DNA of 5,301 bases from Thermoproteota archaeon (lineage in GTDB: Archaea; Korarchaeota; Korarchaeia; B14-G2). This document shows positions 1 to 1,147 of this stretch, piece after piece. The notes below the pieces were generated by a model. It was not told where the DNA came from. It saw only the letters and a program-made list of their open reading frames with translations, and searched no databases. Numbering within the stretch: position 1 is the stretch's first letter; the number at the start of each line of letters is the position of its first letter. Made by a program: the position numbers and the translations under genes. Location of the stretch: assembly GCA_003661385.1 (NCBI GenBank), contig QMWA01000126.1, positions 1 to 5,301 on the forward strand. Direction: 5' to 3'.

Positions 1-609
1 GCCTAGCAGTATCCCCGGCGGCCCGCCAGTCTTCTGGCGGATTTAACCGGGGACTTGCTAGGCGGGCTACGGACGCTTTAAGCCCAGTATGCGTGGCGAC
101 CCCTCGGGGAGCTGGTTTTACCGCGGCGGCTGGCACCAGCCTTACCCTCCCCTTCCTATACCGGACTTTTTACATCCGGCGACAGCCCCCCTCTTCGGGG
201 GGCACTCGGGCTCCCCCCGTCGCGCTTTCGCGCATTGCGGAGTTTTCGCGCTTGCTACGCCCCGTAGGGCTTGGGCCCTTGTCTCAGTGCCCATCTCCGG
301 GCTCCTGCTCTCACAGCCCGTACCGGTTATCGGCTTGGTGGGCCGTTACCCCACCAACTACCTGATCGGCCACGGTCTCATCCTCGGGCATCACCTGGCA
401 GGGGCCAGGCTACTTTCACAGTAGGGGCATTCCAGCACCCTACTGCTATCCGGGATTACCCCCAGTTTCCCGGGGATATCCCGGTCCCGAGGGTAGATTG
501 ACCGTGTATTACGGAGCCGTGCGCCACCAGCGGGCCGCCCCCCGCTGGTAGACTTGCATAGCTTAGCCGGAGCCCGATAGGGGTCGCCTCCAGCAGGATC
601 AACTGGTCT
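1..609 (-). rRNA. 16S ribosomal RNA, 5' part (partial)
   Basis: Read on the minus strand, this is the 5' domain and start of the central domain of an archaeal 16S rRNA. The 5' end is set near 609 by the near-universal GUUGAUCCUG motif (RNA 604 to 595) and the following AGGCGACCCC. The 530-loop core GGUGCCAGCCGCCGCGGUAA lies at 118-137, and ACUGGGCUUAAAGCGUCCGU lies near 70-90. The gene leaves the window at its left edge, at roughly E. coli position 650, so the 3' half, including the anti-Shine-Dalgarno end, is not seen. The distance between landmarks fits an uninterrupted archaeal 16S, so no rRNA intron is seen here. Helix 1 is CCAG/CUGG instead of the usual archaeal CCGG/CCGG. The exact 5' end is uncertain by a few bases. 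Open frames across this stretch are by-products of its GC-rich sequence. Confidence 0.97.
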
Positions 610-633
610 CCAGGCGGCCGCAAGGCCTCCTGG
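610..633 (-). other. leader hairpin abutting 16S
   Basis: Two 10-nt arms (610-619 and 624-633) pair with a single A/G mismatch and close a 4-nt loop. The hairpin ends exactly where the mature 16S begins. Its distal arm (629-633) can alternatively pair with 657-661, so it competes with a longer upstream stem. Confidence 0.5.
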
Positions 634-667
634 GGAGGCAACCTTTCTCCGGCTGCCCAGGTCCTTC

Positions 668-717
668 AAGCGTAAGTTTTCCCCCCACTCAAGTACCGTG
701 GGGGTGTCCTTACGCTT
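668..717 (-). other. strong leader hairpin
   Basis: The arms AAGCGTAAG (668-676) and CTTACGCTT (709-717) are perfect 9-nt complements. Inside them CCCCCAC (682-688) pairs with GTGGGGG (698-704). The two helices are separated by an internal loop of 5 and 4 nt and capped by a 9-nt loop. It lies mid-leader, so it is more likely an rRNA processing or folding element than a terminator. The role is inferred from position only. Confidence 0.6.
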
Positions 718-820
718 ACATTAGTGTACCCACGGGCGGAAGTGGGGCTTCATTACAGGCTGTTAGCCACCTCCACCCCGCCGGGTTCCCGTGGGAACCA
801 ATATAGTAGCTCTATCTCAT

Positions 821-832
821 GGTTTATTAACG
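821..832 (-). promoter_or_regulatory. candidate 16S rRNA promoter (TATA box)
   Basis: On the minus strand the sequence reads AAAACGTTAATAAACC, an A/T-rich TATA-like box (TTAATAAA, 830-823) preceded by a purine-rich BRE-like stretch. A start about 25 nt downstream would fall near 799, just at the GGTTCCC inverted repeat. An alternative weaker box, CTATAT at about 804-809, would shift the start to near 780. No transcript data are available, so the choice between them is an inference. Confidence 0.5.
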
Positions 833-836
833 TTTT

Positions 837-871
837 GTTACACTTCCATGTAATATGTTACACTTTAATGT
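837..871. repeat. tandem direct repeat upstream of rRNA promoter
   Basis: GTTACACTTCCATGT (837-851) and GTTACACTTTAATGT (857-871) match at 13 of 15 positions with a 20-nt period. The pair sits directly upstream of the candidate rRNA TATA/BRE, at about -37 to -72 from the inferred start. The spacing is about two helical turns, which would put both copies on the same face of the DNA, as expected for a tandem regulator or activator site. That function is inference. Confidence 0.55.
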
Positions 872-933
872 GAACTTATGAGGACATAATGATGTCATCT
901 TGACGTGAGGGTGTTGTGGTGGACCCGGCGGGA

Positions 934-947
934 CTTCCACATTGTGG
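934..947 (-). other. noncanonical intron in T loop of tRNA-Ala (about 14 nt)
   Basis: The T loop is expanded by 14 nt. Splicing 934-947 out gives UUCAAAU; splicing 935-948 out gives UUCAAGU, and both are acceptable T loops. Exon UUC (953-951) pairs with GAA (937-935), and CAC pairs with GUG around an AAU loop inside the insert. This resembles a relaxed bulge-helix-bulge beneath the intact T stem. Confidence 0.75.
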
Positions 948-987
948 TTTGAACCCGCGACCTCCGGCTTGCAAGGCCGGCGCGCTA

Positions 988-999
988 CTGTCCGCAGCT
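988..999 (-). other. noncanonical intron in D loop of tRNA-Ala (about 12 nt)
   Basis: The excess in the D loop is a 12-nt stretch beginning AGCTGC and ending GACAG. One alternative boundary, shifted by one base (989-1000), gives the same mature RNA because of a repeated G. Exon GUC (1005-1003) can pair with intron GAC (992-990) next to the D stem, which gives a relaxed bulge-helix-bulge of the kind cut by the archaeal splicing endonuclease. The boundary is inferred from the expected mature tRNA. Confidence 0.7.
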
Positions 1000-1026
1000 C
1001 CAGACTGCGCCACGGGCCCACCACAG

Positions 1027-1117
1027 TGGTGCGGCGGCCGGGATTTGAACCCGGGTCTGAGGCTTCACCCTATTGTGTGGCAGGCCTCTATCCTAGACCA
1101 GGCTAGACTACCGCCGC
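1027..1117 (-). tRNA. tRNA-Gly (GCC) with anticodon-loop intron
   Basis: On the minus strand the acceptor arms are GCGGCGG (1117-1111) and CCGCCGC (1037-1031), with discriminator A1030 and an encoded CCA (1029-1027). The T arm is CCGGG-UUCAAAU-CCCGG. The D stem at 1108-1105 pairs with 1093-1090, partly by G-U pairs. The anticodon stem GAGGC/GCCTC (1088-1084 with 1063-1059) contains CUGCCA followed by a 13-nt insert, giving anticodon GCC at 1081-1079, so glycine. Without the insert the RNA is 78 nt. It is the first gene of a tRNA-Gly to tRNA-Ala unit. A TATA-like box lies about 26 nt upstream, so the transcript probably starts at or near the mature 5' end. Confidence 0.95.
1065..1077 (-). other. 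canonical 37/38 intron in tRNA-Gly (13 nt)
   Basis: The insert CACAATAGGGTGA lies between A1078 (position 37) and A1064 (position 38), the standard archaeal intron site one base 3' of the anticodon. Removal restores a 7-nt anticodon loop (CUGCCAA) on a 5-bp stem. A boundary shifted by one base is possible, and the bulge-helix-bulge it forms is relaxed and includes G-U pairs. Confidence 0.8.
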
Positions 1118-1139: not shown

Positions 1140-1147
1140 TATTTTAA
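1140..1147. promoter_or_regulatory. shared TATA element between tRNA-Gly and nep1
   Basis: The sequence reads TATTTTAA on the plus strand and TTAAAATA on the minus strand. On the minus strand its centre is about 26 nt from the first base of tRNA-Gly, the usual archaeal TATA-to-start distance, and a purine-rich AAAGG precedes it as a possible BRE. On the plus strand a start would fall near 1169, about 12 nt before the nep1 ATG. It is the only good A/T-rich box in the 63-nt divergent spacer, so both genes probably use it. Support is stronger for the tRNA direction. Confidence 0.55.

Follow-up and report, generated by a model that had tools for sequence, protein, structure and literature searches.

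A tRNA-Ala(UGC) gene with predicted introns in the D loop and the T loop, and a high genome-wide load of tRNA introns, in an archaeon of the Korarchaeum class

The window, the whole stretch of 5,301 nucleotides analysed here, is contig C126 of G000, a metagenome-assembled archaeal genome of 1.74 Mb in 206 contigs that is 91% complete. By kinship labels this genome belongs to the Korarchaeum class, where it forms an order-level branch of its own, and not to Thermoproteales, the group that the earlier note had named for introns outside position 37/38. The same class holds genome G002, which we take to be Korarchaeum cryptofilum. The host is an uncultured heat-loving archaeon and a deep relative of Korarchaeum. 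On the minus strand the window carries, in this order, genes for tRNA-Gly (1117-1027) and tRNA-Ala (1019-917), followed by the first part of a 16S rRNA gene (609-1). The features are:

1140-1147, minus strand: TATA-box-like TTAAAATA, read from the sequence, about 25 nt upstream of tRNA-Gly
1027-1117, minus strand: tRNA-Gly(GCC) with encoded CCA, 7 nt upstream of tRNA-Ala
1065-1077, minus strand: 13-nt anticodon-loop intron of tRNA-Gly(GCC), position 37/38, with a better central helix at 38/39
917-1019, minus strand: tRNA-Ala(UGC) gene with two interruptions, 103 nt including the encoded CCA
988-999, minus strand: D-loop intron AGCTGCGGACAG, 12 nt, at about position 20/21
934-947, minus strand: T-loop intron CCACAATGTGGAAG, 14 nt, position 59/60
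1-609, minus strand: 5' part of a 16S rRNA gene truncated at the contig end, on the same strand as the tRNA pair and downstream of it

Because of the tRNA-Gly intron, ARAGORN names the gene at 1027-1117 tRNA-Ser(AGA); we rejected this call in favour of tRNA-Gly(GCC) with an intron. The TATA-like TTAAAATA is a possible promoter for a dicistronic Gly-Ala transcript. In the 16S leader (610-916, minus strand) a hairpin, GTAAGCGTAAG...CTTACGCTT, may serve as a stem for pre-rRNA processing.

Read along the minus strand from 1019 to 917, the tRNA-Ala gene starts with GGGCCCG TG GCGC, a 21-nt D loop and GCGC G CCGGC CTTGCAA GCCGG AGGTC, and continues with GCGGG, a 21-nt T loop and CCCGC CGGGTCC A CCA. 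Base pairing holds throughout the four stems (acceptor, D, anticodon and T). The anticodon is UGC in a loop of 7 nt, G3:U70 and the discriminator A (A73) are present, and the CCA end is encoded. This confirms the earlier description of D and T loops of 21 nt in an otherwise intact tRNA-Ala.

Excision of the 12 and 14 nt leaves a tRNA-Ala of 77 nt, as the earlier note had predicted. ARAGORN made no call when both inserts were kept or when the D insert alone was excised, and called a false tRNA-Val when the T insert alone was excised. With both inserts excised it called tRNA-Ala(tgc), that is, an independent caller recognises a standard tRNA. In 19 other genomes of the class, the loops of the orthologous tRNA-Ala(UGC) are of normal size and lack inserts. 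One uninterrupted orthologue (L093) has exactly the D arm that splicing would give here, GCGCAGTCTGGTAGCGCG, and the spliced tRNA-Ala is identical at 63-66 of 74 positions to four orthologues from the Korarchaeum class.

Splice motifs were scored in a fixed register: each 3-nt bulge is cut between its second and third bases, and the 3' end of the upstream exon pairs with that of the intron to give the central 4-bp helix. In this register all 4 central pairs are formed in each of the two tRNA-Ala introns, which supports the proposal of two noncanonical introns with bulge-helix-bulge geometry. In the D-loop intron (988-999) the central helix is GTCT/GGAC, the outer helix is the D stem, whose 4 bp follow a single A.A mismatch, and the 3' bulge is AG^T. 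Its boundaries can slide by one base, with the mature tRNA unchanged. The inner helix is absent here, giving the bulge-helix-loop form. In the T-loop intron (934-947) the central helix is TTCA/TGGA, the outer helix is the T stem (5 bp) and the 3' bulge is again AG^T. This motif at 59/60 has both bulges at the full 3 nt, on either side of 4 bp, and only its inner helix is minimal, so that the term relaxed, used in the earlier note, does not suit it.

Taken alone, the tRNA-Ala gene gives modest statistics, the central pairing of its two introns being matched in 4% and 1.7% of intron shuffles. The strength of the geometry evidence lies in the six tRNAs of the genome that are interrupted at 59/60 (Ala-UGC, Met-CAU, Thr-GGU, Asn-GUU, His-GUG and Trp-CCA). 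Jointly these six introns form 22 of the 24 possible central pairs; shuffles gave 10.8 +/- 2.2, and none of 5000 reached 22. As a positive control, 18 introns at 37/38 fit 60 of 72 pairs, a value that no shuffle out of 5000 reached. For the precursor at 37 C a different structure is predicted to be the most stable one: the fold with the splice motifs has -37.7 kcal/mol, the minimum free energy fold -48.6 kcal/mol.

An intron-aware parse of the genome found 40 complete tRNA genes with 51 introns, a density of 1.28 per gene. In total 35 of the 40 genes are interrupted: five have no intron, 21 have one, 12 have two and two have three, where counts for single genes may be off by one because the splice motif is among the features by which the parser makes its selection. 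Twenty introns lie at 36/37-38/39 and the other 31 are noncanonical. The median length is 13 nt and most are 10-18 nt long. We set some registers by hand from the mature tRNA (the D loops of Arg-UCU, -CCU and -CCG, the D arm of Thr-UGU, Ser-CGA and the third intron of Ile-GAU), and these miss the strict geometry. The same parser, run on G002, gave 46 tRNAs, a plausible complete set, and 6 introns.

The tRNA-Ala(UGC) gene is therefore not exceptional in its own genome. The gene for tRNA-Trp(CCA) (L036, G000:C49:6387-6476) has the same layout, with introns in the D loop and the T loop and none at 37/38. Archaeal introns at 20/21 and at 59/60, and tRNA genes with several introns, have been documented before (PMC4090602), which makes the gene one of a known kind. 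Two noncanonical introns in one tRNA were earlier called a striking single case, a view that does not hold beside the 14 multiply interrupted genes of this genome. We regard the gene as a further member of the documented class of multiply interrupted archaeal tRNAs, and the genome-wide load as the more interesting result.

Many tRNAs of this genome escape common tRNA callers or receive a wrong name from them. With the plain Rfam tRNA model, 11 of 38 matches in G000 were within the best 150 hits of six genomes, and 139 of 198 matches in the five other genomes of the class were within the same best 150. Genes for tRNA-Phe, tRNA-Tyr, initiator tRNA-Met and some others were not found with the Rfam model in this 91%-complete genome; they may be encoded in the part of the genome that the assembly lacks, or be so disrupted, by splitting or permutation, that the model does not recognise them.

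The splicing endonuclease, EndA, is encoded as one protein of 367 aa with two PF01974 domains, and is the only EndA found in the genome. Its C-terminal half is closest to the catalytic subunits of crenarchaea (A. pernix) and its N-terminal half has a weak match to the crenarchaeal structural subunit. Across ten EndAs of the class the catalytic residues Y299, H314 and K345 (Tyr/His/Lys) do not vary, nor does K222, whose counterpart in the alignment with the A. pernix protein is K44, in the Crenarchaea-specific loop (CSL). This loop and its lysine confer cleavage of noncanonical introns (PMC6379350). The AlphaFold2 model is confident (mean pLDDT 91.3), and the nearest solved structure is the fused EndA of M. 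kandleri, followed by the A. fulgidus chimera 3p1y. This chimera, described as having the 'broadest substrate specificity', is of the fused two-domain homodimer type with a CSL, as predicted for the EndA of G000, and has a fold similar to the one predicted here. The A. pernix CSL has been inserted into the A. fulgidus EndA (PMC6379350). Such proteins are engineered, whereas the EndA of G000 is natural. An EndA of this make-up, with two fused domains and the CSL lysine, supports the earlier suggestion of an endonuclease with broad specificity. The genome also encodes the ligase RtcB (PF01139; L209, contig C181). Its gene is cut by the contig end and was joined from two frames across an apparent 1-nt deletion; this frameshift near the contig end is probably an assembly error.

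We consider, with a probability of about 0.9, that tRNA-Ala(UGC) is a functional single-copy gene with introns at 20/21 and 59/60, both cut independently by the fused EndA and with exons joined by RtcB. In brief, the exon bases just 5' of each intron would pair with the last bases of that intron, as GTCT/GGAC in the D arm and as TTCA/TGGA in the T arm, and each helix so formed would stack on the intact stem of its own arm. The resulting motifs would be a bulge-helix-bulge in the T arm and a bulge-helix-loop in the D arm. The single fused (beta-alpha) EndA, acting as a homodimer with its CSL lysine, could cut both motifs independently, after which RtcB would ligate the exons to the 77-nt tRNA-Ala. 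The gene anatomy, the comparative intron boundaries, the geometry, EndA with its key residues and the rtcB gene are observed in the analysis; from the sequence we infer that the gene would be transcribed, cleaved and ligated, that the introns would be released as circles and that the two cuts would be independent. Each motif sits within its own arm, with that arm's stem as outer helix, so that the two cuts look independent and either order would be possible. A required order of folding and cutting, proposed earlier, is thus not indicated for this gene. The order of cutting may be relevant in tRNA-Arg(GCG) and tRNA-Ile(GAU), whose introns are close together.

It is very improbable that the gene is a decayed copy, with random insertions in a dead gene while another tRNA-Ala(UGC) serves the cell. 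The incompleteness of a 206-contig assembly leaves room for a second intact gene, which the earlier note had proposed to look for. We found no other tRNA-Ala(UGC) among 41 tRNA loci of the 91%-complete genome, and the pseudogene reading is therefore not favoured. Only one match to a T-loop-interrupted tRNA-Ala was found in the genome; the stems, the identity elements G3:U70 and A73, and CCA are intact, and five other isoacceptors have inserts of this geometry at the same position, all of which speaks against decay.

Even less probable is that the tRNA functions unspliced, with enlarged D and T loops, although the predicted fold of the precursor retains the acceptor, anticodon and T stems. The inserts would separate GG(18,19) and the T-loop TTCRA...T and so break the contact between the D and T loops, which is required for the L shape of tRNA. 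The lack of inserts in the orthologues also argues against this reading, as does the occurrence of 51 such inserts at typical archaeal intron positions (PMC4090602). An assembly or sequencing artefact, for which one might point to the fragmentation of the assembly into 206 contigs, is just as improbable: in 35 of 40 complete tRNA genes, on many contigs, the inserts leave the exons intact, and most have splice-motif geometry.

In G002, tRNA-Ile(UAU) is present and Ile2(CAU) is absent. The presence of tRNA-Ile(UAU) without Ile2 is reported for K. cryptofilum (PMC8450103). G002 has the EndA architecture, K222 with the CSL, the catalytic residues and tRNA-Ile(UAU) in common with G000. It differs in its 6 introns in 46 tRNA genes and its uninterrupted tRNA-Ala(UGC), compared with 51 introns in 40 genes here, so the intron load of G000 is about ten times that of this relative. 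K. cryptofilum has been described as the sole archaeon with an alpha2 EndA and noncanonical introns, and Fujishima and Kanai proposed a 'korarchaeal alpha2 with specific loop' type of EndA (PMC4033280).

The multi-intron tRNAs of Thermoproteales (e.g. Pyrobaculum; Sugahara 2008, via PMC4090602 and PMC8450103) also have short introns and motifs of the bulge-helix-bulge type. Positions such as 20/21, 25/26, 29/30, 30/31, 37/38 and 59/60 are common to both groups, as is a maximum of three introns per gene. In contrast, EndA of Thermoproteales consists of separate alpha and beta subunits, and that of G000 is one fused two-domain protein. The number of introns per gene is 0.21 in archaea overall and 0.84 on average in Thermoproteales, and Pyrobaculum calidifontis has 71 introns in 46 genes (PMC8450103). 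An intron density like that of G000 has so far been reported for Thermoproteales. A validated pattern search found the T-loop-interrupted tRNA-Ala(UGC) only in G000 among 384 archaeal genomes of 250 genera, a count that applies to a strict pattern and to a set in which the share of Thermoproteales is unconfirmed. The class of genome G312 was considered as Thermoproteales and rejected, since it looks euryarchaeal; its 0 of 59 matches to this pattern says nothing on Thermoproteales. A query with eIF6 gave no match in the contigs of the genome. Our search of the literature on Korarchaeia and tRNA introns, which covered few of the subscription journals, returned no paper on such a lineage.

These comparisons suggest that a high density of tRNA introns, most of them noncanonical, evolved a further time, outside Thermoproteales. 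We lean towards the view that this order-level korarchaeal lineage had its own burst of tRNA intron gain, reaching a density like that of Thermoproteales independently and enabled by its fused, CSL-bearing EndA. If true, the burst would be an independent test of the hypothesis that endonuclease and introns co-evolve. At least one relative with the same type of enzyme keeps few introns, and EndA may therefore permit such a burst and not alone cause it.

Several other tRNA genes of this genome may be mentioned. Three introns each are found in tRNA-Ile(GAU) and tRNA-Arg(GCG) (L033, G000:C2), and in tRNA-Ile(GAU), also on G000:C2, none of the three is at 37/38. A locus on the minus strand (L007 1501-1598, G000:C2:18416-18513) is a probable tRNA-Ala(CGC) with two anticodon-loop introns, at 33/34 and 37/38. 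Its anticodon is enclosed by GGTAG...CTACC repeats and G3:U70 is present; the splice motif at 33/34 is weak (2 of 4 pairs), and the locus could alternatively be read as a second Thr(GGU). All three isoacceptors of tRNA-Val carry introns of 13-14 nt at 25/26, TCACTAGCATAAG, TCGATAGCATAAA and TCCGCTGTGATAAG (L010, L028 and L029), which suggests that these introns were inherited through gene duplication.
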